Shown one piece after another: positions 4,042-23,481 of a stretch of DNA of 23,799 nucleotides. Source of the DNA: a virus. Location: positions 1-23,799 of IMG/VR virus record IMGVR_UViG_3300032309_001176; one strand, written 5' to 3'. The translations under genes were made by a program, and so were the position numbers. How positions within the stretch are numbered: the first letter of the stretch is position 1; every line of letters starts with the position of its first letter. Below the pieces are notes generated by a model. That model saw only the letters and a list, made by a program, of their open reading frames with translations, had not been told where the DNA came from and did not search any database.

Positions 4042-4782
4042 TTAACATCCCGTGCTCCCATCAACGGTTATGTATAATGATTGTATTCCACTTCCAACAT
4101 AGTTGTATACTTGACTACATGCGAATCCTGAGTTAGGACAATTTGAATTATCTTGAGCTAAGATATATCCACCAATGGTATCAAAATACAGAACATCACC
4201 ATTGTTTAACCCTGTGATTGTTGTATAATAATTACAAGTTAAAGCATCAATATTTCCCACACTCACAGTTCCACCATAGTTTACTTGGTATTGTAAATAC
4301 GCTTCTTGAGTTCTGAATTTAGCATAAATTAAAAGTGAACCAGCAGAAGCAGTTCTACTTGGAGTTGGTGTTAATGTCGGTGTTTTAGTAGGCGTTGATG
4401 TGTTAGTAGGAGTGACTCCAATCGTTCCAGTTTGGCTTGGTGTAACCGTCGGAGTTCTTGTTTGAGTTGCGGTAACACTCGGTGTAACACTTGGGGTTAC
4501 ATTAGGTGTTCTTGTAGGGCTAGGTGTGTTCGTTGCGGTCGGAGTAAAAGTTGGAAGACCAACAATATCTAAATTGATAAAGTTGATACACTCACCATCA
4601 GATTTTACTTTGATGATTGTTGTTCCATAAGGTAATGATGTTGTATAATAACCGTATGTAAATGCGGATACAGGTAAGTTGGTTTCAAATGGCGTTGTGT
4701 AACCATCCAAGTTTGAATATAAATCAAATGGTCCAACTAGTGCTCCTAAATCCGTTAATGTTATTAATACTCCGTATGCCAT
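4042..4782 (-). CDS. PT-linker virion protein with two small beta modules
   Basis: This gene encodes 246 residues in three parts. Residues 1-75 form a beta-like module (TDLGALVGPFDLYSNLDG..., with TTIIKVKSDGECINF). Residues 76-147 are a Pro/Thr-rich linker of the TPSVTP/TPTNTS type. Residues 148-246 form a second beta-like module with four Cys before a C-terminal Cys (DGSTGC). The first module resembles short beta modules common in Bacteroidota phage structural proteins. The gene follows the 760-aa linker protein by 5 bases. The likely role is an exposed fibre or decoration protein binding host surface or glycans. No enzymatic motif is visible. Confidence 0.65.
   Translation of the reverse strand: MAYGVLITLTDLGALVGPFDLYSNLDGYTTPFETNLPVSAFTYGYYTTSLPYGTTIIKVKSDGECINFINLDIVGLPTFTPTATNTPSPTRTPNVTPSVTPSVTATQTRTPTVTPSQTGTIGVTPTNTSTPTKTPTLTPTPSRTASAGSLLIYAKFRTQEAYLQYQVNYGGTVSVGNIDALTCNYYTTITGLNNGDVLYFDTIGGYILAQDNSNCPNSGFACSQVYNYVGSGIQSLYITVDGSTGC
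4342..4557 (-). repeat. PT-linker tract of the 246-aa protein
   Basis: This stretch encodes residues 76-147, built from imperfect hexapeptides such as TPSVTP, TPTNTS and TPTLTP, giving an 18-base periodicity. The coding strand is C+A-rich with few G. A short non-repeat island (TGTIGV) interrupts it near residue 120. Confidence 0.85.
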
Positions 4783-4787
4783 AATTT

Positions 4788-7070
4788 TTAAGGTGTTGGT
4801 GGGATATGATATGGTTCTATTCTACATGCTAAAGCTCTTGAGAAACTAGCACCTGAAGGAACTCCTGTTGAACCACTCCAAGAAATACCATCATAAGAAT
4901 AGAAAGATTTAGCTCCATTATTAGCGGATACAACATAAGTTGTTCCATTATAAACAATTGTTTCAGGTGTTGTAAATGCTGATTGAGTTATACCTGTCCA
5001 AGAAATACCGTTTGTTGAATGTGCCAATTGGAATGTTGGTCCAGTTCCAATCGCTAACCATTTAGTTCCATCCCAAGTAATATTTGTAACCTCAGTAGTT
5101 ATTGGTGATGTTGTTCCTGTCCAATTTATACCATCATAAGAATAACCTAAAGTATTTGGTGATACTTGTCCGCCAGCAACCCACATGCTTCCATTATACC
5201 ATACATCTCTAATATTACCAGGTGTGAAATTTGTGGTTGTAGTTGCTGACCAAGTTGTTCCACTGTTATCAGAATATTTTAAATCACTATTACCACCCGC
5301 AACAATTCTGCTTCCATTGTAACCAAATGTTCTTATTAAAAAGTTAGCCGTTGATTTATAAGTCCAACTTATACCATTTGTAGATGTGTAAGCACTACTT
5401 CCAATACCTGCTAACCAAAAATCACCAAAGAAATATACATCTTTAGCACTGAAACCACTTGTTGTAGAATCAAACGCTGTTGACCAATCAATACCATTAT
5501 TTGATGAATATAATATTTGAGTTTTATTAGGAAGTTGGTTATCTGCTGTAGCAACCCAAACATTATTTCCATAAGCAATCTCTTGAACTGTTACTCCTGT
5601 GAAATTAGAATTGGTTGAGACATAAGATAATCCATTATTATCAGAATAGTAGATTGTGTTATCAGCTCCAATTAGAAATCTTATACTTCCAATGTTTGGT
5701 GTTTGGCTAGGAGTATTAGTTTGAGTTACACTAGGTGTCGGGGTGAAAGTTTGAGTCGGAGTCGGGGTGGGAGTCGGACAAATTAAAGGATAAGATATTG
5801 ACCTTGTTGTTAAATAAACACCTGGACTTGGATATGAAATTCCTGATGATAATGTTGTGCCAGTTCCAATAACAACTGCTGTGGAAGGAGGGACTCTTGA
5901 AATCCAATAATTTGGACCAGCAACAAAACCAATAGTATAAATATCATTTTGAAATAATTGATATGATGTTCCACTTAATGAACCATCAATCAATGGACCA
6001 GTCGCTCCTGAAAAATATCCAATAGTAGTTGCCGAATATGTTCCATTAACTCCACTGTATGTCCCCGTTACACCACTTAAAATAACTTGAGAAGGACATA
6101 TAAAAGTCGGAGTAGAAGACGGGGTAACACTAGGAGTTTGTGTTGCGGTATTAGATTGAGTCATTGTATTGGTCGGAGTCATTGTATTGGTCTGGGTTAC
6201 GGTCTGAGTAGGAGTCATTGTATTTGTCGGAGTTACACTTGGTGTTTGTGTGGCAGTGTTAGTTGGTGTGTTTGTCTGAGTTTGTGTTTGTGTGTTTGTC
6301 TGAGTTTGTGTTTGTGTCTGAGTAGGAGAGCTTGTTTGAGTTAAAGTGGGGGTGGGCGTAGGACAACTTACAGGATATGTAATATAATAATTATTATTAT
6401 TATCAAATCCTGGACTTGGATATTTTATATTACTGATTGTGCTCAAAGTAAAATCAAGAACAATTGTTAAACCAGGAGTTAAACCAACAACATAATTATC
6501 TGTTCTTTTAGTTATACCATAACCATTTATAGAAGGATTAGATTGGGTTATCGCATATATTGTATAATAATTTGTTCCATCAAATCTTCCATAAGCAATA
6601 CCATAATTTCCATCTGAACCTGGTGTATCAAATACCCAGTTTGATATAGTTGAGAAGAATACATAATTAAATGTTCCGCCAGACCAACTCGTCAATCTTG
6701 TATAAGTTCCATTGTATTCTGTTAAACCTGAATTCGTTGAATTGATTGTAATTTCTTGAGGACAAACGGGATTCGGAGTGGGTGTAGGGCTAGGAGTTTT
6801 AGTTTGTGTTTGTGACGGAGTTTGTGTTTGTGTTTGTGTTTGTGTCTGTGTTTGTGTCTGTGTTTGACTGGCAGTATTTGTCGGAGTAACTGTATTAGTA
6901 GGAGTTACCGTCGGAGTCTGGGTTGAAGTGGGGGTCGGTGGGAAATCTTGATACTGAGCGCTACCTGAGAAAGCACAACCAGGTTCTACTCCTTTAACTT
7001 TGATATCCCATATCGGTCTTAGTTCACCAAGATATGTTGACCATTTTGTTTGTAAAAATTGACTACCCAT
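4788..7070 (-). CDS. large fibre-like protein: two paralogous beta modules and an Asp-box propeller on PT linkers
   Basis: This gene encodes 760 residues. Residues 1-43 are a unique N-terminus that may be the virion anchor. PT/QT-rich linkers occupy about 44-102, 237-322 and 432-459. Modules A (about 103-236) and B (about 323-431) are diverged copies of each other, sharing a Cys-Pro start, an NGTY segment, an I.YPSPG segment and a Cys-Pro exit. Residues 460-750 contain seven repeats of the form YS.(D/N)G..W (near 475, 521, 561, 599, 643, 684 and 724), consistent with a seven-bladed propeller with Asp-box motifs as in sialidase/BNR-like folds. I see no sialidase catalytic Arg triad, so binding is more likely than hydrolysis. 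The protein ends PPTP, like the stub of another linker. The likely role is receptor or glycan binding. Confidence 0.75.
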   Translation of the reverse strand: MGSQFLQTKWSTYLGELRPIWDIKVKGVEPGCAFSGSAQYQDFPPTPTSTQTPTVTPTNTVTPTNTASQTQTQTQTQTQTQTQTPSQTQTKTPSPTPTPNPVCPQEITINSTNSGLTEYNGTYTRLTSWSGGTFNYVFFSTISNWVFDTPGSDGNYGIAYGRFDGTNYYTIYAITQSNPSINGYGITKRTDNYVVGLTPGLTIVLDFTLSTISNIKYPSPGFDNNNNYYITYPVSCPTPTPTLTQTSSPTQTQTQTQTNTQTQTQTNTPTNTATQTPSVTPTNTMTPTQTVTQTNTMTPTNTMTQSNTATQTPSVTPSSTPTFICPSQVILSGVTGTYSGVNGTYSATTIGYFSGATGPLIDGSLSGTSYQLFQNDIYTIGFVAGPNYWISRVPPSTAVVIGTGTTLSSGISYPSPGVYLTTRSISYPLICPTPTPTPTQTFTPTPSVTQTNTPSQTPNIGSIRFLIGADNTIYYSDNNGLSYVSTNSNFTGVTVQEIAYGNNVWVATADNQLPNKTQILYSSNNGIDWSTAFDSTTSGFSAKDVYFFGDFWLAGIGSSAYTSTNGISWTYKSTANFLIRTFGYNGSRIVAGGNSDLKYSDNSGTTWSATTTTNFTPGNIRDVWYNGSMWVAGGQVSPNTLGYSYDGINWTGTTSPITTEVTNITWDGTKWLAIGTGPTFQLAHSTNGISWTGITQSAFTTPETIVYNGTTYVVSANNGAKSFYSYDGISWSGSTGVPSGASFSRALACRIEPYHIPPTP
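5694..5780 (-). repeat. PT-linker tract 3 of the 760-aa protein
   Basis: This stretch encodes residues 431-459, from the closing Cys of module B to the start of the propeller domain. It consists of TPTPTPTQ and TPSVTQ type units. Confidence 0.85.
6105..6365 (-). repeat. PT/QT-linker tract 2 of the 760-aa protein
   Basis: This is the longest linker, encoding residues 236-322. It combines QT dipeptide runs (hexanucleotide-like DNA, about 6271-6321) with TPTNTM and QTPSVT units in 18-base steps. Part of it (6248-6287) is nearly identical to linker DNA in the 622-aa gene (8695-8734, 36 of 40 bases). Confidence 0.88.
6765..6941 (-). repeat. PT/QT-linker tract 1 of the 760-aa protein
   Basis: This stretch encodes residues 44-102. 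Its centre (about 6821-6866) is an almost pure hexanucleotide array, TTTGTG on the + strand, encoding alternating Gln-Thr. Gain or loss of units would preserve the reading frame. Confidence 0.88.
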
Positions 7071-7084
7071 TAATTAATTTTAAT

Positions 7085-8953
7085 TTACCAACCTGAATAA
7101 ACATATTTTGTTTTAAGATAGTTTACAACATTGTTATGTTCTGTTGTAGTTAATTCTCTGTTATAATATAACCACTCAAACATATAAACATTTTGTGTGT
7201 AATTATCAGGACCATCACTGCTGATAAGATATCTACTTAATGTTGTTCCTGTATAAGAACCTGATGTTCCACTTGTTGAGAAAGAACCATTTATTGTTCC
7301 ATACATATTAGAACTATTTCCTGAAGAAATTAACAGTGATGCTGTATTTATCGGAGAAAAATTGATAGTTCCTTTATAGTTAGCGACACTACTAGCACTA
7401 CTAGTTTGACCATAACCAAATGAATAGGATGTTCCAGATGCTAATGAAATATACCAACCTGCTGGAGTAGGAGTCACAGGTTTATAAACCATATATTGTG
7501 TATGTGCTGTTACTGATGTATTTGATGTTGAACCAGTATATCCAATACTTGGTTTTACAAATCTAACTGCTGTTCCTGTAAATCCAGTTCCAAGTGTTAT
7601 TCCTGATTCTATTGATGGTTGTTGAATAGCAACTGATTGAGTTGCTGAACCACCTAATAAACCATAGTTAGTCCAAGATGAAGTAGTTGCTCCACTATTA
7701 GACATAAACCATAATTGTAGGTTTGTTACACCTGATGGACTGAAAACAGTTGGCGTTGAGCTCGGAGTTGGTGTGACTGTATTAGTTGGAGAAGAAGTGA
7801 TACTCGGAGTTATACTAGGAGTTGGTGTCGGAACAGGAGAAGCCCACTCATCATATCTCCATTTATCACGAAGATAATTCTGAACTGCTACTCTTTGTTG
7901 ATAGGTAAGTTCTCTTGTATAAATCATTACCTCCGCTAATTCCATACCAGCATTTTGTGCTGTTAAAGTTCCACCTGAAACCACAGATGCTCCAATAATA
8001 AACGAGTTAAATGTTGTTACTGGTGTTCCTGTAATTGCTGTTGTGTTTGTTGCTCCTGATTGGTTGATTTCCAAATATTGATTACCCGTTGGATAAGGTG
8101 CTGCTAATGTAAGTAAGAACTTATCATTCAAGTTGGTAGCACTATATGAATAACTGTAAGCGTTTGTTATTCCGCTATTTTGGAGTATGAAAGAAGAAGA
8201 GTTTAAACCAGCACCGAAATTATTATTGAATACTCTTGGTGGCTGATTTATCAATGGTGTTATTGGTGTGAATCCACCGTTTGTTGTGTTACCTGAATAT
8301 AAGTAGAATTGAGCACCAAATCCATTCGCATTTGTTGTTCCTGAATAGTTATAACCCGCAGTAGTCATAACATAGAATGCGGTAATACCTGCTCCTGTAA
8401 TAACTGTGCTATCAAATCTTTGTGTTAAGAATTCTCTTAAACCAGCTGTAGCACTCTTGGTAAATCTAACAATCTTTGGATTACCAGGTAATGATGTTGA
8501 ACCCGACCACTGAGGCATTGTATCAGTTGTAGTCCCTGTTAAAGTTTTACTATAAGTTCCAATACTTCTCCATGCTGAAACATAATCAGTTCCACCTGAA
8601 GTAATATAATCTATTGAACCTATATTGGTTGAGTCATACCATAAGTCAGGTGTTGATGGTAAAATATAAGGAGTTGAAGAAGGTGTTAAAGTCGGTGTGG
8701 CAGTATTAGTTGGTGTGTTCGTTTGTGTTTGTGTCGGAGTGAAAGTTGGGGTCACACTAGGAGTCGGAGTAACATCAGGTGTCGTTCCACCTTCTTCAGC
8801 TGGCACGGCATTGATAACATAACCAGTCAGAACTGCTGAACCCAATTTTGTCTTTTGGGACAATGGTTTCATCAATTCATTAATATCATCCTTCTCAACC
8901 TTGATAAAATTTGTTACTGGTCTGTATGACCTACCGTTCCATACTAATCTCAT
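7085..8953 (-). CDS. fibre-like protein with two LamG/concanavalin-type modules on PT linkers
   Basis: This gene encodes 622 residues. Residues 1-56 form a unique N-terminus (MRLVWNGRSYRPVTNFIKVE...), possibly the virion anchor. PT linkers occupy about 57-97 and 374-402. Each large module starts with a L.LW(Y/F) type strand (about 103 and 412) and ends with the same signature: a strand, then Y.REL plus a helix ending NYL..K (338-367 and 590-619). That ending is typical of LamG/concanavalin A-like domains, where the strand is followed by a short capping helix. Such domains usually bind glycans or proteins. The gene follows the capsid and tube-like genes after a strong hairpin, suggesting lower expression as a decoration or fibre. 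Head versus tail location cannot be told from sequence. Confidence 0.72.
   Translation of the reverse strand: MRLVWNGRSYRPVTNFIKVEKDDINELMKPLSQKTKLGSAVLTGYVINAVPAEEGGTTPDVTPTPSVTPTFTPTQTQTNTPTNTATPTLTPSSTPYILPSTPDLWYDSTNIGSIDYITSGGTDYVSAWRSIGTYSKTLTGTTTDTMPQWSGSTSLPGNPKIVRFTKSATAGLREFLTQRFDSTVITGAGITAFYVMTTAGYNYSGTTNANGFGAQFYLYSGNTTNGGFTPITPLINQPPRVFNNNFGAGLNSSSFILQNSGITNAYSYSYSATNLNDKFLLTLAAPYPTGNQYLEINQSGATNTTAITGTPVTTFNSFIIGASVVSGGTLTAQNAGMELAEVMIYTRELTYQQRVAVQNYLRDKWRYDEWASPVPTPTPSITPSITSSPTNTVTPTPSSTPTVFSPSGVTNLQLWFMSNSGATTSSWTNYGLLGGSATQSVAIQQPSIESGITLGTGFTGTAVRFVKPSIGYTGSTSNTSVTAHTQYMVYKPVTPTPAGWYISLASGTSYSFGYGQTSSASSVANYKGTINFSPINTASLLISSGNSSNMYGTINGSFSTSGTSGSYTGTTLSRYLISSDGPDNYTQNVYMFEWLYYNRELTTTEHNNVVNYLKTKYVYSGW
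7748..7837 (-). repeat. PT-linker tract 2 of the 622-aa protein
   Basis: This stretch encodes residues 373-402 between the two LamG-like modules. It is shorter than the others and Ser-richer (TPSITPSITSSP). Confidence 0.82.
8648..8785 (-). repeat. PT-linker tract 1 of the 622-aa protein
   Basis: This stretch encodes residues 57-102, separating the N-terminal anchor from the first LamG-like module. It contains TPTPSVTPTFTP and TQTQTNTP units. Bases 8695-8734 are close to 6248-6287 in the 760-aa gene. Confidence 0.85.
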
Positions 8954-8976
8954 ATTATAAAAATGTGGCTAAATAA

Positions 8977-8995
8977 TGGGGGACAAAGTCCCCCA
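8977..8995 (-). terminator. strong hairpin between capsid-region and fibre genes, probable terminator or attenuator
   Basis: A perfect 8-bp stem (TGGGGGAC 8977-8984 with GTCCCCCA 8988-8995) encloses a 3-base loop. It lies in the 60-base gap after the 180-aa gene, the widest gap in the late operon. On the minus strand it is followed by TTATTT, a modest U-rich tail. I read it as an intrinsic terminator or attenuator reducing transcription of the fibre genes relative to capsid genes. It could also protect mRNA 3' ends. Confidence 0.65.
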
Positions 8996-9013
8996 CTAAT
9001 ATTATTCAATCAA

Positions 9014-9556
9014 TTAAGATTGGAATGTGAACTGAGGAGCAACTGCTGCTAAAGTAGTTGTTACTAAGATTTCTCTTGAAGCGTCAGGTTCACCACCACT
9101 GATTGTAAGAGTTACCCCGTTCAAATCATTGTAGTTTTGTCCTGTGCTCATGCTACCCGCAGAAACAAGTCCGCCGTTAGCTAAGAATACCATCCAATAT
9201 CTTTCGTTATTGTCTTTAACAATAGCGTTGATTTCGTTTTGTTTAACTAAGTCAAAGAATAAATTTCTTAATGACTGGTCTAATTTTGGAAGAGAGATTA
9301 CAAGTGAAGGTGCGAATGTAACAGATTGTGCTACATCGTTAACTTGTATTTCTTCCGTGAAAGAGCTGGATTGCTTTACCAATTCAAAATTAAACCAAGT
9401 TCCTTTACCAGAAAATGATGTAATTTGTTCTGAAGCGTTTTCAGTATAACCAGAAATAGTATTTCCGCTTGTTCCCAAAATCCACATCTCTTTGATACCT
9501 CCGATTGAAGCATTTCTACAATCTAAAGTATATCCGTCTGAAATATAACAACTCAT
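9014..9556 (-). CDS. virion structural protein, possibly tail tube
   Basis: This gene encodes 180 residues. Recognisable features are the N-terminal YTLDCRN..IGGIKEMWIL (about 8-27), the central FTEEIQVND strand (66-74), the LRNLFFDLVKQNEINAIVKDNNERYW segment (about 96-121) and the C-terminal GVTLTISGGEPDASREI strand (about 147-163). This arrangement is widespread in Bacteroidota phages downstream of the capsid gene. The all-beta layout with one central helix fits a tail-tube-like fold, but I infer this without structural support; a head decoration role is the alternative. It starts 30 bases after the capsid gene behind an A-rich leader, so high expression is likely. The hairpin at 8977-8995 follows it. 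Confidence 0.6.
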   Translation of the reverse strand: MSCYISDGYTLDCRNASIGGIKEMWILGTSGNTISGYTENASEQITSFSGKGTWFNFELVKQSSSFTEEIQVNDVAQSVTFAPSLVISLPKLDQSLRNLFFDLVKQNEINAIVKDNNERYWMVFLANGGLVSAGSMSTGQNYNDLNGVTLTISGGEPDASREILVTTTLAAVAPQFTFQS

Positions 9557-9586
9557 ATTATTATGTTTTTGTTTTTTTTTGGTTTA

Positions 9587-10537
9587 TTATCTAGCGATTA
9601 CAAATGAATCTATAGAGAATACTCCAAGACCATATACTAATCTAGCGAAGATTTTAACGATATCTTCATACGGGTCATACATACCTTTAATTTCAATACC
9701 ACCGTTATCTGTAGCATTCATACCAACCATAAAGTAAGAAGCTGGACCAGCTACTACTCTTGATTGACCATCCAAACCTTGTGTAGGGATGATTCTTACA
9801 TTTGTTCCTGGTAACATTACTGACCACTCTTGACCTTGAGCTGCTGATTTATCATCAAAAGAGAATAAGTTCACATAAGAACTGTTTCTCATTGAAGCAA
9901 CTAAAGCTCTATAATCAGAGTAAGAACAGAACATAGCTAAGTCATTTCTGTGTAATACATTCGCAGGGATATTTTGATAATAAGTTGAGAATACAGTTAA
10001 ACCGTTTGTAGAAGTAGCCGCAGTGTAAGTTACTTGTGTAGCACCATTACCTGAAGTGATTAAAGCTAAAGCTCCGTTAAAACATTGGTTGTTATATTCA
10101 GTAGCACCTGTTGCTGTTGTGTTTCTCCATAATTGTTTTTCTACAGTATCAGCGATTCTGTTAGAAATATCTTGGATTACTAACTCTTCAAAAGGAACTG
10201 ACTCTTGGAAGTTTGAGTTAGATAATCTTTGACTTAAGAAATAGTCATAAAGGTCGTAAGCACAAAGTGATTGGTTAACCTTTTTATTACAAGTTTCAAT
10301 TGTTACTTGGTCAATATTTGTTTGTCCTGAAGCATTGAAACCACAAGAACCGTCTTGTAAGTAGATATCGTTTGTTAAAAACCCTACTTGTTGTGTCCCT
10401 TTAATATTTGGACGAATTGTAGCGTAACGAGGTAACACCTCACCTAATATACTTTTGATAAGCATATCAGTTGCGTTTTGGTCAATCCAAACATCAAGTT
10501 GAGAAAGATTGTATGCGAATTTTTCGTTCTTTTTCAT
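9587..10537 (-). CDS. major capsid protein
   Basis: This gene encodes 316 residues expected to form the icosahedral shell. Support comes from context (directly after protease and scaffold-like genes) and from sequence. There is an N-terminal helix with D..ATDMLIKSILGEVLPRYATI (about 20-39), a long helix rich in acidic and Gln residues (PFEELVIQDISNRIADTVEKQLW, about 116-138) like the HK97 spine helix region, and a C-terminal half of alternating strands ending YDPYEDIVKIFARLVYGLGVFSIDSF. The length suits an HK97-fold capsid protein without a delta domain. The 28-base gap upstream is A-rich on the coding strand, the favoured translation leader in Bacteroidota, consistent with very high expression. 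Confidence 0.8.
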   Translation of the reverse strand: MKKNEKFAYNLSQLDVWIDQNATDMLIKSILGEVLPRYATIRPNIKGTQQVGFLTNDIYLQDGSCGFNASGQTNIDQVTIETCNKKVNQSLCAYDLYDYFLSQRLSNSNFQESVPFEELVIQDISNRIADTVEKQLWRNTTATGATEYNNQCFNGALALITSGNGATQVTYTAATSTNGLTVFSTYYQNIPANVLHRNDLAMFCSYSDYRALVASMRNSSYVNLFSFDDKSAAQGQEWSVMLPGTNVRIIPTQGLDGQSRVVAGPASYFMVGMNATDNGGIEIKGMYDPYEDIVKIFARLVYGLGVFSIDSFVIAR

Positions 10538-10565
10538 ATCTTTTAATTTGTTTTTTGTTTTTTAT

Positions 10566-11336: not shown

Positions 11337-11338
11337 AA

Positions 11339-13957
11339 TTACTGATTTATTTGATTTAGAATGTTTATTATTTCTTCCAATAAATAGTCATCATTATTGG
11401 ATGAAGAGAACTTATATTCAAAATTCCCTTCTATTGAAATTCCTTTTACTTGTCCTTGTTTAATCATATCCCAAACTTCTTGATTATCAATACGAAATCC
11501 TACCATCCAGGTCCCAACAGGAACTTGTTCAGGTGTGTAACCTAATGAGTAAGCTTTGTCTTGTTGACCGTTAACAATCCAAGATTCAACTAAATACACA
11601 TCTTCAAACTTAACATCTGAATGTTCGTAGTTAGTTTTGTTTGTTCTACCCTCAATTAAAAATCTTTGAGCCATACGCTCAATCGTTTCTGGTTTGAATG
11701 TAACAAAATATTTCTCTCTTGTTACCTCATCCAATCTTGGAATAAGAATACCAGGTTTCATTGCTGGTGAATATATCATTCTCTTTTCCTCGTCTAACGA
11801 GAATTGAGTGGACATCTTTTGTTTCTTTAATGAACATGCTTGGAACATTCCCTCACCCAAATAATCTACTGGCTCATATGAACCACCACATCCACATCCG
11901 AATGACCACTCCTTGGCATCTTCTTTATTTTTGAATATTGCTAATCCCTGTAAGAAACCAGCAGGTAAAGCTTTAAGTGATGTTGGATTTTTAACATTGA
12001 TACCCAATTCTGAATAAGCTCTTCTAGCATCAGCTGAATTATCAATTGCTTCAGAAATCATATATCCCTTTTTCTTCAACTCTTCAGCTTTGTATTTCTT
12101 AAACGCATTTCCTGCGTTAGGTCCTTGTGGGAAATCTGATAAATAAATCTCATCCCATTTGAGACCAATTCTATCTAACTCTCTTTCTGTTTCTCCTGTT
12201 CTTGATTTCTGTCTAGCTGATACAATTACGATTCTATGGTCTTCCCATTTTCTATTCACATAATCTACCGTCTTCTGAATTGGTGAGTTACCTCTAACCA
12301 ATGTATCATCAACATCAACAATGATTACTCTTGACTCTGAACTTCCAAATTCTTCTTTGGACATACCAACTGATTGTGGACTCCTTGAACCATAATCAAC
12401 AGGAGGGTTAACCATGCCAGCCATATTTGGTGCGGGGATTTGATAATCAGCATCCTCTTTCATCCTTCTGGCGTTATTTGTAATCTTTGTTTGTTCTGTT
12501 TGTTCTGAGGTAATACCTGCGATACCTGGTGAGAACACAAGTTGTAACCAATAATGTCTACAATTAGCTCCCATTTTATATTGAAAACAATCTACAGATG
12601 TTCCTTTAGGTCTTGGAACTAATTTATATGAATTAGGTGCTGCTTCAAGTGCTGAAGATAAAGCAACAATGTCTTCATATCTGAAAACAAATTGTCTACC
12701 ACCTAACATCCTTCTACACATTTCTCTTGATGTTTCAATAAGTTCTGAACCAAAACCAACCATATAGACATATCTAAATCTTTTGTTACCTAAATCTTGT
12801 GATGAGGCTTCACCAGGTGTTGTAATAATTTGAACGAATTGTTCTGGTTTCATTTTGTTGAATTTCTGACCCATCTCTTTTCTAATCTTGTCTGCGTCAA
12901 CTTCATTAACCTCATCAATTACCCAACCTTGTTTTAATAGCTCTTCTAATTCAACACCTCTATCTTCAATATATTTTTGAATTTCTGGTGATGTCTCTTG
13001 ATTGATTTCAGGGTTATGAACATCACAAGGCATGTAAACAACTTTACCATCTACCATATGTTCGTGTGAACCATTACAACCAATAACTTGTGCGTAAGTC
13101 GCAGCTTCATCAGCTGACTCAAACACTGGCATTCCGTTAATCATTGTTGTGCCAAAATATAAACCATCGGTATCAATTGTTCCATCAGAACAACCACATC
13201 CACAACCATCCACTTCAGCGAAATGTGAATCCCACATCCCATAACATTTTCCAGCTGCTTCTTCAGCTGACTTACCTTCGTTTCTAACATACGCAATACA
13301 TCTACTAATATATGATTCTTTATCTTCACCTGAATTAGGTTTAACAAATGTTTCCTCTGTCTTTGTGAATCCTTCTATTGGAACGCAATTAGGCACCATT
13401 TTTCCGTCTTTCTCCTTCATGCCTATCATCTCATACCCATCGTAACAAGGCTCCTTAAATTCGGTTGTTCCTGAAGTTTGTGACCAAGGCGTTAATGAAC
13501 CAACATCATATCCCATTTCTTCTTCAATTCTTTGAAGGTATTTTTCTGACCAGTCAAGAGCTTCAACACCTCCCCAAGAATCATATGCGAGCAATCCGCA
13601 CGAACCTTCATAACTCTTTGATGTCTCCAAATCTTTTTTGTGACGAGCTAGATAAGAATACATTCTTCTAATCGTTTCAATTGAGATGGGTTCACCCTTA
13701 GCCAGTTGATTCAATCTGTTCTTTCCTACAGGAGTCATACAACTACCGTATCCGTTCTCATCTACATACTTCTTGGCTCTTTGAGCGTTATCAATGATAT
13801 ACTGAGGATAGTCATTTACCGTCTCCTCAAATCCTTCTTTAGAGAACCACATAAACTCTGTCTCAATAGCAGGTTGTAATACCAATGCGATTTCTTCAAC
13901 TCTGGTATCACCACTTAATGCTTCATCAATATCTAATTCAATTACTCTTAGTGCCAT
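11339..13957 (-). CDS. multidomain head maturation protein: minor-head-like region, HAD phosphatase-like domain, XkdF-type protease
   Basis: This gene encodes 872 residues. Residues about 62-145 carry a Cys/Gly-containing helical domain (GSCMTPVGKNRLNQLAKG, then SYLARHKK and SWGG). About 170-245 is a Cys-containing segment with SRCIAYV...AAGKCYGMW. At 250-258 lies a CGCGC cluster. About 325-480 ends with a CRHYW motif (466-470), typical of minor-head-like regions in Bacteroidota phages. Residues 543-655 form a HAD-like domain: DVDDTLV (nucleophile Asp548, acid Asp550), Ser580 and Asp639 as motif candidates. A second Cys cluster is at 687-690. Residues about 715-850 match XkdF-type prohead protease: H779, the VESWIV strand, VGTWMVGFRI, and GISIEG with Ser841 as candidate nucleophile. 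The size is far above a lone protease. Adjacent scaffold and capsid genes fit a maturation role. Confidence 0.75.
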   Translation of the reverse strand: MALRVIELDIDEALSGDTRVEEIALVLQPAIETEFMWFSKEGFEETVNDYPQYIIDNAQRAKKYVDENGYGSCMTPVGKNRLNQLAKGEPISIETIRRMYSYLARHKKDLETSKSYEGSCGLLAYDSWGGVEALDWSEKYLQRIEEEMGYDVGSLTPWSQTSGTTEFKEPCYDGYEMIGMKEKDGKMVPNCVPIEGFTKTEETFVKPNSGEDKESYISRCIAYVRNEGKSAEEAAGKCYGMWDSHFAEVDGCGCGCSDGTIDTDGLYFGTTMINGMPVFESADEAATYAQVIGCNGSHEHMVDGKVVYMPCDVHNPEINQETSPEIQKYIEDRGVELEELLKQGWVIDEVNEVDADKIRKEMGQKFNKMKPEQFVQIITTPGEASSQDLGNKRFRYVYMVGFGSELIETSREMCRRMLGGRQFVFRYEDIVALSSALEAAPNSYKLVPRPKGTSVDCFQYKMGANCRHYWLQLVFSPGIAGITSEQTEQTKITNNARRMKEDADYQIPAPNMAGMVNPPVDYGSRSPQSVGMSKEEFGSSESRVIIVDVDDTLVRGNSPIQKTVDYVNRKWEDHRIVIVSARQKSRTGETERELDRIGLKWDEIYLSDFPQGPNAGNAFKKYKAEELKKKGYMISEAIDNSADARRAYSELGINVKNPTSLKALPAGFLQGLAIFKNKEDAKEWSFGCGCGGSYEPVDYLGEGMFQACSLKKQKMSTQFSLDEEKRMIYSPAMKPGILIPRLDEVTREKYFVTFKPETIERMAQRFLIEGRTNKTNYEHSDVKFEDVYLVESWIVNGQQDKAYSLGYTPEQVPVGTWMVGFRIDNQEVWDMIKQGQVKGISIEGNFEYKFSSSNNDDYLLEEIINILNQINQ

Positions 13958-13961
13958 AATA

Positions 13962-16900: not shown

Positions 16901-17195
16901 ATAACGCAATTGCGGCTTGAGCACCAGCGAATGACGCAGTAATCCCTTCACCAACCTTAGCGAAGGCACCAACTCTCTTTTCTAATTCCTGTCCTTTAAT
17001 TGAATCTTGGAAATCTTCAAGGATACCCTTAGCACTTTTTACTTGTGATGAAAAGTCAGTGAATTGTTTTGTTCCAATCTCTATACCTTTTAATGCTTCT
17101 TCCGCATCCTTCACAGCCTTCTCAAGTTGAGTGATGTTTGTGATACTTTGTTTTACACCGTTGATGGTGAGGTTCAGTGCGATATTTTTAGCCAT
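13962..17195 (-). CDS. tail tape measure protein
   Basis: This gene encodes 1077 residues that set tail length and are held inside the tube before infection. The N-terminus is short beta then coiled coil (about 1-75). An Ala-rich hydrophobic zone spans about 85-190 with a membrane-like segment at 166-185. Long Lys/Glu/Gln-rich coiled coils fill the middle. A second hydrophobic stretch lies near 915-955. The C-terminus has the GGF..A.GGML.GPSHEQGG signature and EGQEAIINR, common in tape measure proteins. At roughly 1.5 angstroms per residue, the usual rule, it suggests a tail of around 150 nm if the full length is used; this is inference. The tail-assembly chaperone that normally precedes it is not adjacent: the 859-aa tail protein lies immediately upstream. 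Confidence 0.88.
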   Translation of the reverse strand: MAKNIALNLTINGVKQSITNITQLEKAVKDAEEALKGIEIGTKQFTDFSSQVKSAKGILEDFQDSIKGQELEKRVGAFAKVGEGITASFAGAQAAIALFGTESEDVAKAAAQAQGLLTIALAARSAAEGVVAVRTVAANIATVASAAAATAANTATKALYATLAANPYGAILAVVGLIVGALVAFTGETKKAVNVTAELSQAQSQEADKLKQQLVILTQLNGLRNLQKTTLEDLKKQYPGFNAFIDKENKLTQEGVNFIKLKIKSYELESRAKLVIQKLSENNLKILEIENKGIVEQVSFWEKAWNTIKTGGNLSALTIANLQTGIQNQVTAVKEITAESGKWEAALTKIYTETDTVQGQLAKYQQTLDLQVKTEERAQEATKNAADQRKAVADAYNQGLRALTNYTDALAKYTEENKKLDEVLQRIGQGKFEAKILEQLKEIGDLRKSNIEALNKAGNEYIKTIEKISNVPTDNFINSFQKYRELLEKELSKGGKNFRDAIKTAFGDTDLTQQQRNVVDNLAEAYGKLFQFIENKPGLKDFVTGLKDINVAFDDQRELASGLAPTLRSGFDAFQYLLGDVLAVYGNYKKEFEGGLAGDLGFDPAQTKASADAFLNTLRTSLLIPTQVALDKAQKEILQKQISIQEGFKKSAKIGSEEYNKAEVEISKLNGQIAKIDENLKNAGNNKFIISPEATKTVEDNISALTKFSDGLVKVEQDVIGINEEVGKLTKTLSGAQLGEAIGGVIFQNIDAISQTIIGARTVQQKQEKKLIDETKNDVKGLAQFRIDLEKQGIDVSNTTNAQLLASYQAYKKKEVEVTKQAEKEKKDAQQQTYNDIVKGIEVFSSTLNQISALSRERVQTDLEGLKIAQKKTLELVVGDSEAAAAKRLEIQTEYEQKAKEIEKKARIDSLKFSLVQAIANGAQAFVKALAEFGPILGPILAGVNAALTLAQVVIINDQISNAQAMRRGGFVKAQGGMLLSGPSHEQGGIPLAQMGVIAEGQEAIINRQSTINFRDLLSTINQSGGGRPLVVNNFDDSRIVEAIASQKQKPLRAYVLQSEITNEQAISKRLDDLSKI

Positions 17196-17223
17196 ATCAA
17201 TAAATAGTTAAATCCTTATATCA

Positions 17224-19803
17224 TCAGCAGTCGTTCTCTACTACTTGACCTAAATTGTTTATAGTTGAAAAAGTCATTCCTGTTAATGTTTGTTTTAAGT
17301 AGTGTCCTGTTGTATAAGGAGCTACAGTGCTTCCTGAACTAGTGTAGACATAACTTAATTCTTGTAATGAAGGTGTTGAACAATAGAATGTTGTAGTTCC
17401 TGTAATCAAACCAGAACACAATGAGAATTGGTCGTCTGTTACATAACCTGTTAATGTGAATGTCCCCGCTGTTGATGGGTATGGTTGATTCGGTAATATG
17501 TTATGACTCGGTGCTGGTGGAACAACTTTATTGTAAGGTGCGACAATCTTAATCAAAGACACATCTGTAAGTTTCCAATTCACAAGGTCAGCCTCGTTAA
17601 TCTTTTCAATGTTGTAGTATGCGTCCTTAAGAAATATCTTATCTGTTAAATTAATTCTAGCGATATCAATCGGATTAAATAATACTTTACCACTAACTCT
17701 TCTTACTTCAGGAGAATACAAATTTGTGAAGTAATCACCATACCATAACTGATAAAGGTTATAAGATGTGAACTGTTGAATCACAGTATTATCATCACCA
17801 AAGAAATCAAAGTTCTTATCAAAGTTTAAGTCAGATATTCTTTCAGGGTCTTGACTATCCAATGTTGATAGATGTGATATACAAGGATAAGTTGTTTGAG
17901 CTATCGGTGTTCCTCCTGAAGTCATATACCATCTTAATGGTTGAGTATTACCTGATTGACCATAGAAATATCTATTACCTGTCCAAAAGAACAGATGGTT
18001 CTTAGTTGAATAAGCAACTTCTTTTCTTGTTGGAATATCAAATCTGTATACCATTGGTATAATGATGTTCGTTGACCCACTGATAACTTCAGTTGGGGTT
18101 GCTCTGAACGGAAACTCAATTGTTTCTTCACCTGTTAAGATATCAGAATTAGCTGTAAACTTTTTTGTTCCATAAGGTAAGACATACTCATCTTCCCATT
18201 GTTTGTTTAGATGTTCTTCTTCACCACTTAGGTATTGGAAGTTATATGCTTTCTTTAATTGGAAGTTAACAGGTTCAATCTTTGTTGGACTGCTTGTGTC
18301 CCATATCTGAGTCCAATCAACTTCGTTGGCGAAGTTCTGAGCATAATACCAAGGCAATGGCTCCATCCTCAATACTTTAACACCTGGCTCTTGAACGATA
18401 ACAAGGTTAAACATTTTGATTATTGATTTGATATAATCTAAACAACTCGTATCAGGGAATTGTAGTTTCATATCAACCAAGTTATTGGCGACAAATGTTG
18501 GGGAGTTGTATAAATCCCAACGAGCACCAAATCCTAACCAATCAGTTGGACCAACCCATAAACCAGCATCTCTGTAAGATGATGAAGATGGATTAAATCT
18601 TATGAATAGACCAACATAATCACCAGCGTTTAACTGGATATTGTTCATAAAAATTCTCTGATTATTTGAACTGGAATAATTGAATGCTCTGAATGAATCA
18701 ACCGTTCCTCCGACTGCTGTTCTTGTTGCTGCGTTTCTTAATCTTTCAGGTGATGATGCTTTGAATAAACTAAGCCCCCAATATGTGGACACATAGTTAT
18801 TGGCGTATCTCTGATTTACTTTACCCTTAAACTCAAACGAGTATAAACCTGAATAAGGTATCTGATAACAACTATTAACTTGGTCAAAGTTACCTGTGGG
18901 GTCATAACCATCTGTTGATGATATTCTACCAAAGTTAATTTGTTGTGTTACACCTTGTGAATATTGAAAGTATTGTGCGTTCGGTAATGCGTTACCGTAT
19001 GTTCTAAAGATGTTTTGGTTTGTTCTACCTGAAACTGTTTCAACTCCAAGTTTTCCGTTCACACCAATATCCATATAGATGGACTTAAAATAAGCTGAAT
19101 CAAAGAAGTTTGATTTAATCTCATAACCACTCGTGCTAAAAATCAAATCTATGACCTCTTTTAACCTTATGGCTGGTTTGAAATATGTTGGCGTGATAGA
19201 ATTACCACTAAAGTTTAATCCCGTGTTTCCTGAGGTGCTAATTGAGAAATTGAAAGCAGCGGTTGTTGCTGTCGCTGACTGATAATCTAAACCCCAATTC
19301 ACCATTGGATAAATTATCTTTCCACCAAACAATCCTTGTGTGTCTCCACTGTTGGCATACCACGATTGAAATACCGTATCGTAGTTTTGAATATGATTAA
19401 GATAGTTCCAATCAAGTTCCTTTAATGTCTTATCCGCAACCAATGAACTAAAATCTGTTACCTCTGATAAGATATAAACTTCATAATCAATTTGAGAACC
19501 AGTCCTTACAACAGAATTCAATCTTAAGAATCCTTTGAAGATATCTGTCCCTCTACATTGAACGACACATTGTCTTCTTGTTAGTGGGTCAAATCCTGTT
19601 CCATTAACCAAATAGAAATGCTCAAAGTAATCGTTGTTAACTTTTGTTCCTGGTAATCCGAATGTTTTGGAGTATGGACTTCTTCTTGTTTCAATGTCTG
19701 TTATATCCGTTTCTTGAATGATAACATTGATTGATAGGTCTTCAAATAGGTCAAGCTCCTGCCACTCGTTATTGTAGTTTAAGACAAGTAATGTTGTGTT
19801 CAT
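17224..19803 (-). CDS. large tail protein, probably distal tail or baseplate component
   Basis: This gene encodes 859 residues. The N-terminus carries QETDITDIETRRSPYSKTF.LPGTK.NN..F, an opening I associate with Bacteroidota phage tail proteins located beside the tape measure gene. The body is rich in aromatic, Asn and Ser residues with many predicted strands, resembling distal-tail/baseplate assemblies. The last 80 or so residues (from about 780) form a separate Cys-containing module (C..... YC) ending in Cys. No PT linker joins it, only a short Pro-containing stretch (NILPNQPYPS). No enzymatic motif is visible. It starts one base after the 750-aa gene and is followed after 28 bases by the tape measure gene. 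Hub versus distal-tail assignment is uncertain. Confidence 0.62.
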   Translation of the reverse strand: MNTTLLVLNYNNEWQELDLFEDLSINVIIQETDITDIETRRSPYSKTFGLPGTKVNNDYFEHFYLVNGTGFDPLTRRQCVVQCRGTDIFKGFLRLNSVVRTGSQIDYEVYILSEVTDFSSLVADKTLKELDWNYLNHIQNYDTVFQSWYANSGDTQGLFGGKIIYPMVNWGLDYQSATATTAAFNFSISTSGNTGLNFSGNSITPTYFKPAIRLKEVIDLIFSTSGYEIKSNFFDSAYFKSIYMDIGVNGKLGVETVSGRTNQNIFRTYGNALPNAQYFQYSQGVTQQINFGRISSTDGYDPTGNFDQVNSCYQIPYSGLYSFEFKGKVNQRYANNYVSTYWGLSLFKASSPERLRNAATRTAVGGTVDSFRAFNYSSSNNQRIFMNNIQLNAGDYVGLFIRFNPSSSSYRDAGLWVGPTDWLGFGARWDLYNSPTFVANNLVDMKLQFPDTSCLDYIKSIIKMFNLVIVQEPGVKVLRMEPLPWYYAQNFANEVDWTQIWDTSSPTKIEPVNFQLKKAYNFQYLSGEEEHLNKQWEDEYVLPYGTKKFTANSDILTGEETIEFPFRATPTEVISGSTNIIIPMVYRFDIPTRKEVAYSTKNHLFFWTGNRYFYGQSGNTQPLRWYMTSGGTPIAQTTYPCISHLSTLDSQDPERISDLNFDKNFDFFGDDNTVIQQFTSYNLYQLWYGDYFTNLYSPEVRRVSGKVLFNPIDIARINLTDKIFLKDAYYNIEKINEADLVNWKLTDVSLIKIVAPYNKVVPPAPSHNILPNQPYPSTAGTFTLTGYVTDDQFSLCSGLITGTTTFYCSTPSLQELSYVYTSSGSTVAPYTTGHYLKQTLTGMTFSTINNLGQVVENDC

Positions 19804-19804
19804 A

Positions 19805-22057
19805 TTAGCTATTCAATAATTTAATATTATTTGAGTAAACATAAGTCAATTCAACATTTGTGATAGACCTGTTACCTTTTGTTTTTCTTACGAAATCATT
19901 TCCGATAATATTGATTGGGAATAATGAACCATCTTCGTTTATAAGATATGCGTCATTAGTTGTATACAATTCTTCCAAGTATACAAAGTCAGGGTCGTTT
20001 ATAAAACCTGAGTTTACAATATGTGTTTCAACAATCTGAGTTTGATAATCAGTTGTTCCTCTTGAATATGTTGTCTTGATTGGATTAGATGAACCCCATG
20101 CGATATTCCATTGTCCATAAGTTTGTCTATCAATACCGATACCTTCACTTCTATACTTTTGAAATCTAAAGTAATCCCATGCTCCGTAACGATTCTTAAA
20201 CATAATTTGTGGGTTCAAGAAGTAGTCACAATTTGGAACAACATTAAATTGGAATATTTCAGACACTGCGGTATATCCTGATACACAAGGACCAGTTCCA
20301 CCTGAGGGTGAGATTGTGGATGGTTGAACATCAGGTTTTAATGTCGTAGGTCTTAGTGGTTCGTTCTCACAAGGAAAGTTAGCTTTACACTCATTACAAT
20401 TGATGTAAGTAGCAGCTCCAAGATAGTTTCCGTTTGAACCGTCACCACCATAAGCCACAACCTCGTAACATTGTGAGTCAATGATAATAACATCACCGAT
20501 GTTTAATACTGCGTCAACGATAACTTGATATTCGGTGCCAGCACAACATCCTCTTACTAAAACATTTCTACTTACAGCAGGAGTGTTACTCGGAGTGGGG
20601 GTCGGTGTGACTGAAGGATTTACACAAGGGTTACCACAGTTAACAATTGTGAAAGCTGCTAAATCTGCGAAAGGAAAACCTGGTCCGAATGTATTACAAT
20701 TCAAACATCCACTAAACGATAATGTTCCAAGTGCTGTTGCGTTGTAGTAAACTGAGTTACCATTACAATCATTATATTTTAACCATCCTGTATTTGTAAT
20801 ATTCAATGTCGCTCCTGATACACAACTTCCAACTGAAGGAGTTGAGCTTGGAGTCGGACTCACATTAGGAGTGGGGGTTGGTTGAACACTACAAGCACCT
20901 AAGTCAGTAAAGGTTATACCAGGTTGTGCTTCATAACTTCTAAGACAAACATTATATGATTCAAAAGGAGCTGCGAAGAATCCAACAGTAAATCCATAAC
21001 AATCAATGTAGAATACCTCAGTGTAAAAATCAAAGTTATTAGTTATCTGATAAGACCTACAAGTAGTTGATGTTGATGACGGAGTAATACTCGGAGTGGG
21101 TGTGGGCGATAATCCTGGTGTTTTAGTCGGAGTCTGGCTCGGAGTTATAGATGGAGTCGGGGTGGGAGTCGGTTGGATTCCTTTACCGAATAATTGAACT
21201 TGATAATAGTCAGTATCTGACGGAAAGTCATATATGTTTTTTGGACCGACACCAATATTCAAAATGTTATAAAGTGATTCACCTGTAAAAGTTGTGTTCA
21301 AATAGTTCTGAGAACATGCTGTTGCTGGTCCTCCACCATTACTTACAATATTTGAGTAAGTTTTCTCTTCAATGAAATAACCATTTCTATCGTAGAAAGT
21401 ATACTTGGCATAATAAGGTTCAGACAAATAGTCACCTCCTAAATCACCATTGGTAAATGATAATGTAAAATATTCTTGTGTTGATATCTCTCTAATTCTT
21501 GGTGAGTTAGTTAAGAACAAACAATTCTGTGTTTCTGGAAATGCTGGTTGTGGACTACCTGATAATGTGAATTGACCGATATTGAAGTATGGTAAGTTAG
21601 CGTTTCTATTGACTCCCATTGTCCCCAAGAAACACTTAAAAGTTTCAGATGGAACACCAGGTTGTCCCACTTGTGTTCCGTTCCCTGTGAACCCTGTAAT
21701 GTTGGATATGAAGGTATCAGCATATTCTTCACCAACTTGAATGTAGTAATCAATTACTTCATTTGAGTATGGTCTTGAAAATGGAGTTGTTTGGTGGGCA
21801 TAGATAACAGTTTCATCTTGGTAAGCAATAGGATAGTTTTGTAGATAAGAATCTAATACTCTTGATAAATCAATGATACCAAGACCATAAGGGTTTGGGG
21901 TTGCTTTACCTTGAAATACCAATGCTCCTTCAGCGTAGACATTGTATACAAATCTAAACTTTGGTTTCGTTGCTGTGTCTGCGGACACTGTGAAATAAAT
22001 CCCATCAGATTTTGATGGTTGAAAATACTCAGGGTTTCTTACTATTACTGTGCTCAT
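19805..22057 (-). CDS. tail protein interrupted by three PT-linked Cys-rich cassettes
   Basis: This gene encodes 750 residues. Residues 1-293 and about 591-750 look like two halves of one conserved tail protein, the second containing FKNRYGAWDYFRFQKY (620-635). Between them lie three cassettes. Cassette 1 (332-390) and cassette 2 (410-478) share a pattern of Cys, ITN, a strand, then CYG or CNG, and later Cys, so they appear paralogous. Cassette 3 (496-563) differs (GCCAGTEYQV, GDVIIIDSQCYEV, INCNECKANFPC). PT linkers occupy 295-330, 391-408 and 481-495, and a Pro/Ser/Thr stretch (569-590) closes the insert. The gene lies one base from its neighbours on both sides. The likely role is a tail-side structural protein displaying surface-binding loops; the split reading is inference. 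Confidence 0.65.
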   Translation of the reverse strand: MSTVIVRNPEYFQPSKSDGIYFTVSADTATKPKFRFVYNVYAEGALVFQGKATPNPYGLGIIDLSRVLDSYLQNYPIAYQDETVIYAHQTTPFSRPYSNEVIDYYIQVGEEYADTFISNITGFTGNGTQVGQPGVPSETFKCFLGTMGVNRNANLPYFNIGQFTLSGSPQPAFPETQNCLFLTNSPRIREISTQEYFTLSFTNGDLGGDYLSEPYYAKYTFYDRNGYFIEEKTYSNIVSNGGGPATACSQNYLNTTFTGESLYNILNIGVGPKNIYDFPSDTDYYQVQLFGKGIQPTPTPTPSITPSQTPTKTPGLSPTPTPSITPSSTSTTCRSYQITNNFDFYTEVFYIDCYGFTVGFFAAPFESYNVCLRSYEAQPGITFTDLGACSVQPTPTPNVSPTPSSTPSVGSCVSGATLNITNTGWLKYNDCNGNSVYYNATALGTLSFSGCLNCNTFGPGFPFADLAAFTIVNCGNPCVNPSVTPTPTPSNTPAVSRNVLVRGCCAGTEYQVIVDAVLNIGDVIIIDSQCYEVVAYGGDGSNGNYLGAATYINCNECKANFPCENEPLRPTTLKPDVQPSTISPSGGTGPCVSGYTAVSEIFQFNVVPNCDYFLNPQIMFKNRYGAWDYFRFQKYRSEGIGIDRQTYGQWNIAWGSSNPIKTTYSRGTTDYQTQIVETHIVNSGFINDPDFVYLEELYTTNDAYLINEDGSLFPINIIGNDFVRKTKGNRSITNVELTYVYSNNIKLLNS
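20573..20617 (-). repeat. PT-linker tract 3 of the 750-aa protein
   Basis: This short linker encodes residues 481-495 between Cys-rich cassettes 2 and 3 (TPTPTPSNTP). Confidence 0.78.
20834..20887 (-). repeat. PT-linker tract 2 of the 750-aa protein
   Basis: This linker encodes residues 391-408 between the two paralogous Cys-rich cassettes (QPTPTPNVSPTPSSTP). Confidence 0.78.
21068..21175 (-). repeat. PT-linker tract 1 of the 750-aa protein
   Basis: This linker encodes residues 295-330 at the junction between the conserved N-terminal half and the first cassette. Two TPTPSITPS units flank a TKTPGLS stretch. Confidence 0.82.
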
Positions 22058-22058
22058 A

Positions 22059-22598
22059 CTATCCTATTAAATTTACAAGACCATCATCAATTAAGTTTTG
22101 GAAGTATACCGCCATTGCTTCTTCTCCCAACTCTGTTAATTGTGTTATAACCTGGTCTTCGGCTTTGGTTAAAAAGTTGATACCCTTGTAACCTTTTTCT
22201 TTAATGCTTCTGGCAATCAAAAATGCTTTTGAATCTAATGATTGTCTTTTGAATCTACCTTGTTCATCTCTCCAATAAACTGGCTTAATTTTAATCCATC
22301 TTTTTATAGCTTCAAGTGGGGGATATGATAATGATGGTTTTCTTCCTTCATCAATCATATCGGGTAAGAACGATGGTTGAACCGTTGGAAATGATACAGC
22401 CAACATTGGGTCACCCTGTTCAATGTCTACAACCCACTCTACGGTCAAATCTCTGAGTAATGAACCCGAAGCCTTTCTTGGACTATTACCTCTCTTAAAA
22501 CCACCGTAATAACCTTGAGAACGATATGGTGTAAGGAGTTGTCTTCTAACTGCCTCATACAATAACACTCTCATTTGTTCCATCTGTTCTGGATTCAT
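22059..22598 (-). CDS. putative head-tail joining protein, HK97 gp10-like
   Basis: This gene encodes 179 residues. The middle is beta-like with Pro- and Arg-rich loops (DEGRKPSLSYPPLEAIKRWIKIK, about 83-105). The segment SKAFLIARSIKEKGYKGINFL (about 123-143) matches the pattern in HK97 gp10-like neck proteins, where an A..IAR.I...G....FL motif is followed by a C-terminal helix. These proteins join the connector to the tail. Here the C-terminal helix is acidic (QVITQLTELGEEAMAVYFQNLI). The gene sits between the tail-completion-like gene (10-base gap) and the 750-aa tail gene (1-base gap), consistent with a neck role. The assignment is by pattern and context. Confidence 0.6.
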   Translation of the reverse strand: MNPEQMEQMRVLLYEAVRRQLLTPYRSQGYYGGFKRGNSPRKASGSLLRDLTVEWVVDIEQGDPMLAVSFPTVQPSFLPDMIDEGRKPSLSYPPLEAIKRWIKIKPVYWRDEQGRFKRQSLDSKAFLIARSIKEKGYKGINFLTKAEDQVITQLTELGEEAMAVYFQNLIDDGLVNLIG

Positions 22599-22608
22599 AA
22601 CTTACATT

Positions 22609-23481
22609 TTAACAAGATTGATATCCCGCTGGTTGTGGCATTCCATTTACCAAATTCCAAGTAGAGTTTGTTAGAGCATACTTAGCGAAGTATGTCCCTG
22701 CTGGTATCGTTAATCCTGTGTTTAGATATAAAGTATCTGATGGATTGTAATCAAACCAGAATTGTTTATTACCGTATAATATCACATTGATTGTTGAACT
22801 ACTACATGCGTTAGGTTGAGTAGAACCTGTTGATACAGCGAAAGCATAAACACCTGGAGGTAAACCACCACTAGGACTAATAGTTGGAGTGTTCGTATTA
22901 GTTGGTGTGATTGTCGGAGTTGCGGTATTAGTCGGAGTAACATTAGGTGTTCTTGTAATTGTCGGTGTGACTGTAGGAGTGCTTGTCTGACTTGGTGTCG
23001 GTTGATTCGGTGTTGAGCTCGGAGTCGGGGTTGGGTATTGAGGACATGCGTTGATGTCTTCATAAACAATGATGTTGGCATCCAAAGCAACACCAGCAAC
23101 ATTATCATTAAATCTTTCAAGGAAAGGTTGAGCTGATTGTGGCAATGTGATATCAAAATAATCTTGAAGATTACCTCGTCTTATTTCCGATAAGAAGTTT
23201 CTGGCATTTAATGATGAGTCAGAAATACAATCAACTTCATTGTCCAAGTTATCGTTTAATCTATCTGCGAAGATTAGAGTTACTTGGTATGTTGTTGTGT
23301 TCTCATCATAAGTTATTGATAAAGGAACAACGAATAGAAATGGATATACCACAGTTGAACCTGAGACATTCTTACCGAAGTCAACAAGGTTACCATATCC
23401 AAATGAATTAATCATTGGATTACCTTCTTGATACTCTTGAAGAAGGCTTATTATCTTATGAAAGGTTATGTATGTTTCCAT
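22609..23481 (-). CDS. putative tail completion/terminator protein with PT-linked C-terminal module
   Basis: This gene encodes 290 residues. Residues 1-146 form a compact domain (an N-terminal helix, NSFGYGNLVDF, then strands YPFLFVVPLSITYDENTTTYQVTLIFADRL in two parts, then a helix with LNARNFLSEI) resembling tail terminator or completion proteins of Bacteroidota phages. Residues 148-204 are a PT linker (TPTNTATPTITPTNTNTPT type). Residues about 205-290 form a small beta module with a Pro/Gly turn (IPAGTYFAKYAL) and a terminal Cys. The known family is normally only about the length of the first domain, so linker and module look like an added appendage. The start overlaps the preceding stop (TAATG). 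Likely located at the neck, displaying the extra module; this is inference. Confidence 0.6.
   Translation of the reverse strand: METYITFHKIISLLQEYQEGNPMINSFGYGNLVDFGKNVSGSTVVYPFLFVVPLSITYDENTTTYQVTLIFADRLNDNLDNEVDCISDSSLNARNFLSEIRRGNLQDYFDITLPQSAQPFLERFNDNVAGVALDANIIVYEDINACPQYPTPTPSSTPNQPTPSQTSTPTVTPTITRTPNVTPTNTATPTITPTNTNTPTISPSGGLPPGVYAFAVSTGSTQPNACSSSTINVILYGNKQFWFDYNPSDTLYLNTGLTIPAGTYFAKYALTNSTWNLVNGMPQPAGYQSC
22870..23043 (-). repeat. PT-linker tract of the 290-aa protein
   Basis: This linker encodes residues 147-204 with regular hexapeptides (TPTNTA, TPTITP, TNTNTP), linking a neck-type domain to a small C-terminal module. Confidence 0.83.

Follow-up and report, generated by a model that had tools for sequence, protein, structure and literature searches.

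Five late-operon proteins of a virus contig, of 246, 760, 622, 750 and 290 aa, are each composed of a base, Pro/Thr-rich linkers and exchangeable compact modules, with the linkers probably acting as the joints of phage surface proteins. We compared the window, that is the whole 23.8-kb contig (a virus record, whose genome is incomplete), with over 100 related IMG/VR contigs. On the whole, the comparison shows that the bases are conserved and the modules exchanged, that the junctions lie mostly in the linkers, and that modules are transferred from slot to slot as well as from lineage to lineage. On balance we favour the existence of a common module pool, in which dozens of families are pluggable via one joint type into several slots of five or more late-operon proteins, and which circulates between lineages with cores about 25-30% identical.

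All five ORFs lie on the minus strand, where the initial annotation had placed them (Table 1). In a 20-residue composition test the Pro/Thr tracts are confined to exactly these five products, and none is found in the tape measure, the capsid, the portal or the scaffold-like protein of 256 aa, as had been claimed, nor in the proteins of 872 and 859 aa or the others tested. With a slightly looser cut ten tracts are counted, the number reported before, while 1000 shuffles of the residues within each protein yield an average of 1.9 and never more than 7, a severe null because the five proteins are Thr-rich. The tracts consist of 34% Thr, 20.5% Pro, 11% Ser and 8% Gln. The near absence of Asp noted earlier is reproduced (2 of 482 residues), and the motif D-S/T-(A,I,L,V,M,T) occurs seven times outside the tracts and never inside them. 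The linkers vary widely in length, some of them contain units of 6, 18, 24 and 30 bp repeated in tandem, and their composition recurs despite differing synonymous codons. The idea that they are recent DNA copies of each other was rejected, codon identity being only modestly above expectation. Different linkers within one contig match exactly over a median of 11 bp, and over at least 31 bp in only 2 of 459 pairs, and recombination by DNA homology between linkers was rejected on account of such short exact matches. In addition, the Pro codon CCG is over-used in the window linkers (36% inside vs 7% elsewhere), for example in those at 22855-23043 and 6084-6383; over all loci it reaches 20% in linkers vs 6% outside, and is higher inside in 61 of 71 loci.

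Table 1. Positions of the five linker-bearing proteins and their parts in the window, and of group I introns in related contigs
Feature	Position	Strand	Remark
622-aa protein, slot A	7085-8953	-	five-protein set
622 base peptide, residues 1-55	8789..8953	-	family M0; dN/dS 0.11
622 linker 1	8648..8788	-	by composition
622 LamG-like module 1, residues 103-370	7844..8647	-	fold weakly supported
622 linker 2	7715..7843	-	by composition
622 LamG-like module 2, residues 414-622	7085..7714	-	family M1
760-aa protein, slot B	4788-7070	-	five-protein set
760 base peptide, residues 1-34	6969..7070	-	family M2
760 linker 1	6747..6968	-	by composition
760 beta module 1	6384..6746	-	family M9
760 linker 2	6084..6383	-	by composition
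760 beta module 2	5796..6083	-	homologous to module 1
760 linker 3	5679..5795	-	by composition
760 beta-propeller module	4788..5678	-	confident model and Foldseek matches
246-aa protein, slot C	4042-4782	-	five-protein set
246 base, residues 1-74	4561..4782	-	family M4; 88% identical to L006; dN/dS 0.07
246 linker	4342..4560	-	by composition; M12 inserted here in L009, L013, L032, L033
246 terminal module	4042..4341	-	family M6; about 35-40% identical in relatives
290-aa protein	22609-23481	-	five-protein set
290 base, residues 1-146	23044..23481	-	98% identical to L045; dN/dS 0.022
290 Pro/Thr linker, residues 147-209	22855..23043	-	L045 DNA similarity ends within
290 exchangeable terminal module, residues 210-290	22609..22854	-	replaced in L045
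750-aa protein	19805-22057	-	five-protein set
750 N-terminal core, residues 1-290	21188..22057	-	86% identical to L045; dN/dS 0.08
750 array of Pro/Thr linkers and Cys-rich cassettes, about residues 291-575	20333..21187	-	varies in relatives
750 C-terminal core	19805..20332	-	87% identical to L045; dN/dS 0.075
Group I introns in capsid genes of relatives	L031 642-887; L032 406-651; L033 356-609; L034 1667-1927; L038 8120-8371

The boundaries between base and module in Table 1 are approximate, most so in the 750-aa protein. Among the module folds that had been proposed, the propeller of the 760-aa protein is confirmed by a model with pLDDT 79.5 and pTM 0.82, which Foldseek matches to propellers including a 7-bladed design at TM 0.74, and the two beta modules of the same protein, described as a pair, prove to be homologues (hhalign probability 96, E 4.9e-9). 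The LamG-like domains of the 622-aa protein fared less well: Foldseek returns concanavalin-like lectin domains, but the AlphaFold model of the whole protein is poor (pLDDT 43.5), so that these matches are used at fold level only, and the fold that they name is a jelly roll, which is widespread among unrelated proteins and uninformative on toxicity. That the 622 modules are LamG-like or lectin-type jelly rolls is thus weakly supported. None of the five proteins has a Pfam match, Ig-like domains included, and searches of PDB profiles with the 622, propeller and 859 alignments found nothing. In relatives, the modules include DUF285 (BspA-type), Lcl_C, DUF5122 propeller and glycine-rich domains. 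The largest slot B protein seen, with 1912 aa in L082 (5946-11684), has DUF285, glycine-rich and propeller modules strung on one base. The dN/dS values are 0.02-0.11 for bases vs 0.13-0.65 for modules; the bases are under strong constraint, and the modules evolve faster yet remain constrained (dN/dS <1).

The comparison loci are metagenome contigs except for one cultured-phage record, and about 100 of them entered the clustering, in which module families are pieces cut at the linkers and grouped by BLAST with fixed cut-offs; because many contigs are near-duplicates, the counts of architectures and junctions below are not counts of independent events. The base families M0 (57 copies), M2 (45), M4 (15), M8 (11) and M11 (8) are always N-terminal, while after the base the modules differ in kind, number and order even where capsid and portal are 96-99% identical. 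The modular exchange first proposed is therefore a property of the parts after the base, the N-terminal bases staying fixed within the group. Two or more base labels precede 17 of the 30 recurrent module families, in a few instances by way of truncated ORFs. Slot B holds M9-M40-propeller in the window vs LamG-M5 in L005 and L006; family M1 of slot A is also found in slot B of relatives and gives way to M3 in L005, and the 760 propeller family takes other positions in L017, L025, L030, L082 and L095. One base is followed by three different module strings in L073, L083 and L092, and fewer Cys-rich cassettes are present in the 750-homologue array of L048 and L050. Behind the 290 base, L045 has an unrelated module of 231 residues vs the 81-residue terminal module of the window, and the similarity of DNA, lost within the linker, resumes at the next gene. 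In the pair L016/L033, M12 and a linker are inserted into a linker with flanks 97-99% identical. The variation observed is replacement of whole cassettes, and the same architectures reappear in different samples (e.g. in contigs L018, L019 and L020). The relatives were checked for modules fixed in place, and exchange was found instead.

Versions of the same loci with no modules are also present. Slots A-C are absent in some relatives, and the 180-aa and 144-aa genes are separated by a slot that measures 412 bp when empty and up to 6.9 kb otherwise, being 412-414 bp with one small gene in ten contigs and 6883 bp in L082. In L042, with a capsid 33% identical, no Pro/Thr tract is found in the homologues of the 290-aa protein (161 aa) and the 750-aa protein (464 aa), the latter having no cassette array either. 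Because L042 and the slots of about 412 bp are empty versions, the modules are taken as add-ons to a self-sufficient core.

As to where the exchanges break, 98 of 108 ends of DNA similarity (74 gene pairs with the same base and different architecture) fall in linkers, which account for 23% of the length of these genes; when neighbouring junction positions are collapsed, the figure is 38 of 46. Pairs with the same architecture also have 85 of 136 homology ends (62%) in linkers, so part of the enrichment is due to linker length variation, and it should be read alongside clear single cases such as the M12 insertion in L016/L033. The claim that the linkers are common joints holds in that most junctions lie in them; they are not obligatory, since the propeller is fused directly to the base in L017 and L095.

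Exchange reaches very distant phages as well. In the strongest case, L127, the portal and the 144-homologue are 29% and 33% identical to those of the window, yet this contig carries the 622 LamG-like cassette (module 1) at 77% protein identity, above the 48% found for this module in the sister L006, and the 290 terminal module at 82%. In L127 the latter is joined by a Pro/Thr linker to the 144-homologue, whereas the 144-aa protein of the window has no linker. At the DNA level, a block at 7815-8698 is 79% identical and has both ends in the linkers flanking the LamG-like cassette, and another at 22621-22863 is 83% identical and extends from the end of the linker almost to the stop; a further short match lies inside the 290 linker, and no 31-mer is common to the window and L127. 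Similarly, 760 beta module 1 is 66% identical in L106 vs 23% for the 859-homologue. Linkers and modules are carried by the 144- and 859-aa homologues in other lineages, the window's own copies having none, and one Cys-rich cassette of the 750 type is appended to the 859-aa homologues in L106, L107 and L128. The system of five proteins that had been described is therefore right for the window and too narrow for the relatives, and the exchange of modules that had been suggested is seen from one slot to another and among phages both nearly identical and very distant. With domains swapped and most junctions in linkers, the latter resemble general-purpose joints on which the phage surface can be swapped.

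In its neighbourhood, the window encodes a portal of PBSX/HK97 type, a tape measure of 1077 aa (a weak match), a capsid candidate of 316 aa (gene 9587-10537), a tail-type protein of 859 aa, and a protein of 872 aa (11339-13957) in which an XkdF-like protease is fused to further parts, among them a HAD-type phosphatase region; the proteins of 316, 180 and 859 aa are named from position and appearance. The homologues of the 872-aa protein have a variable middle and total lengths of 739-1095 aa. Group I introns (RF00028, 55-58 bits) interrupt the capsid gene of several relatives after residue 118 (Table 1), and the window capsid gene has none. For the capsid protein, IMG/VR contains 268 relatives, of which the best 80 were kept, and no relative was found among cultured phages; neither this protein nor one 760 module has a relative in GTDB genome contigs, so no prophage or host was identified there. 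Nor do the 622-, 760- and 750-aa proteins and an L106 linker protein match any cultured-phage protein. The terminase of a close relative is nearest to Bacteroidota-type phages (Flavobacterium and Bacteroides phages) at about 36%, and the Bacteroidota promoter form TTTG-n20-TAnnTTTG (PMC10309648) fits three early window sites; judging by these sequences, the host of the phage group is likely to belong to Bacteroidota. A 55-bp repeat with three window copies (391-445, 637-691 and 900-954) fits the promoter form TTTG-n19/20-TAnnTTTG and overlaps the ends of small plus-strand genes, which is why three small plus-strand proteins have the common C-terminus VES(E/K). The cultured-phage record, L126, is the flavobacterial Nonlabens phage P12024L, with a protease match of 31% and a similar gene order of protease, capsid-size gene, 182-aa gene, two small genes only, and portal.

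Gene position, the module folds and the analogy with T5 pb10 and T4 Hoc suggest display and binding. A tailed-phage particle would carry the five proteins as surface proteins, to which the base would dock as a short peptide (622- and 760-aa proteins), a small domain (246-aa) or core domains (290- and 750-aa), and the extended Pro/Thr linkers would keep the modules off the particle. The outward modules, presumably lectin-like jelly rolls, a propeller, and small beta and Cys-rich modules, may bind host-surface or environmental glycans and aid adsorption; by analogy, binding of host or other glycans is probable. As universal joints in evolution, the linkers would tolerate breaks and length changes, so that cassette exchange there would be harmless to both base and module. 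Nonhomologous recombination may then insert, lose, duplicate or replace whole cassettes, and a single cassette could be usable in several slots and several phage lineages.

The same proteins could be structural and not adhesive, namely head or tail decorations that stabilise or space the particles with modules as interchangeable bulk. The similarly built T5 pb10 does stabilise its capsid (PMC5292684), and slots A-C, which can be absent in relatives, are therefore not essential everywhere; however, fast cassette turnover on a conserved core fits recognition of varying outside targets better, as do lectin-like, propeller and BspA-type folds, and we hold a purely structural role to be unlikely. 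Quite improbable in our judgement is ordinary divergence in fast-evolving tail genes, where the tracts would be slippage-prone low-complexity DNA and the linkers would take no part in exchange. The tandem repeats and variable lengths of linkers agree with it, but it is contradicted by L045, where unrelated modules adjoin 98% identical bases, and it fits neither the high identity of the L127 cassettes despite the distant portal nor the recurrence of linker composition over differing synonymous codons.

Since the tracts are very Thr-rich, they might also be mucin-like sites of glycan attachment, the sugar coat and not the modules being the function. Cytoplasmic phage or host enzymes may act in this way, whereas the known Bacteroidota O-glycosylation requires D-S/T-x, missing from the tracts, and acts on noncytoplasmic proteins (PMC12871550), while phage proteins are made in the cytoplasm; we give this reading hardly any credit. 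It is also very improbable that the exchanges are assembly chimeras made at repetitive linkers, although the relatives were assembled from metagenomes and the linkers have repetitive amino-acid sequences, as the little exact DNA common to linkers, within a contig or between the window and L127, argues against chimeras, and the architectures recur across samples. Exchangeable modules on linker joints are thus the reading that we retain.

Pro/Thr-rich linkers also join binding modules that recombine in bacterial cellulases, which are secreted enzymes, whereas here they belong to phage proteins without a recognised catalytic domain. T5 pb10 is alike in architecture only, having a conserved N-terminal capsid-binding domain, an extended poly-proline linker and an exposed, variable C-terminal domain (PMC5292684). 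It is a single protein in which a short PPAPPAPP linker bears one Ig-like domain, while here there are five proteins with long Pro/Thr linkers, many folds, exchange across slots and lineages, and a docking that is presumed; neither pb10 homology nor an Ig-like C-terminal domain was found, by Pfam for all five and among cultured phages for the three largest. T4 Hoc and Hoc-like fibres likewise combine a conserved particle-binding part with an outward string of domains varying between phages, but these are mostly Ig-like and joined by short linkers, and the anchor is usually C-terminal (PMC10385173); no Ig-like string with a capsid-binding domain is detected by Pfam here, and propeller and jelly-roll-like modules stand instead. 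Mosaic receptor-binding and tail proteins show ongoing domain shuffling across distant lineages (Smug et al. 2023, PMC10684548), as here, and the five proteins appear to share with mosaic adhesins a conserved attachment part and exchangeable distal domains. The word "linker" is unused in that survey, while here one linker type is the joint common to several proteins of one phage. The Ig-like, BACON and PKD adhesins of gut Bacteroidota phages are also modular, with binding domains variously arranged; they differ in their domains and gut habitat, and the available text of the reports mentions no PT linker joints (PMC13370021, PMC6949934). Our literature search brought up no description of phages that use Pro/Thr linkers as common joints. 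Domain shuffling in phages is already established (PMC10684548), and what is seen here is a single joint type across many late-operon proteins.

Close relatives catch the swaps with their boundaries in the joints, and rapid change of the phage surface becomes a directly testable question. The finding also gives a rule for picking candidate adhesion modules in uncultured phages, namely late-operon sequence after a Pro/Thr linker, and it gathers the bases, linkers and modules of phages that probably infect Bacteroidota into a natural catalogue.
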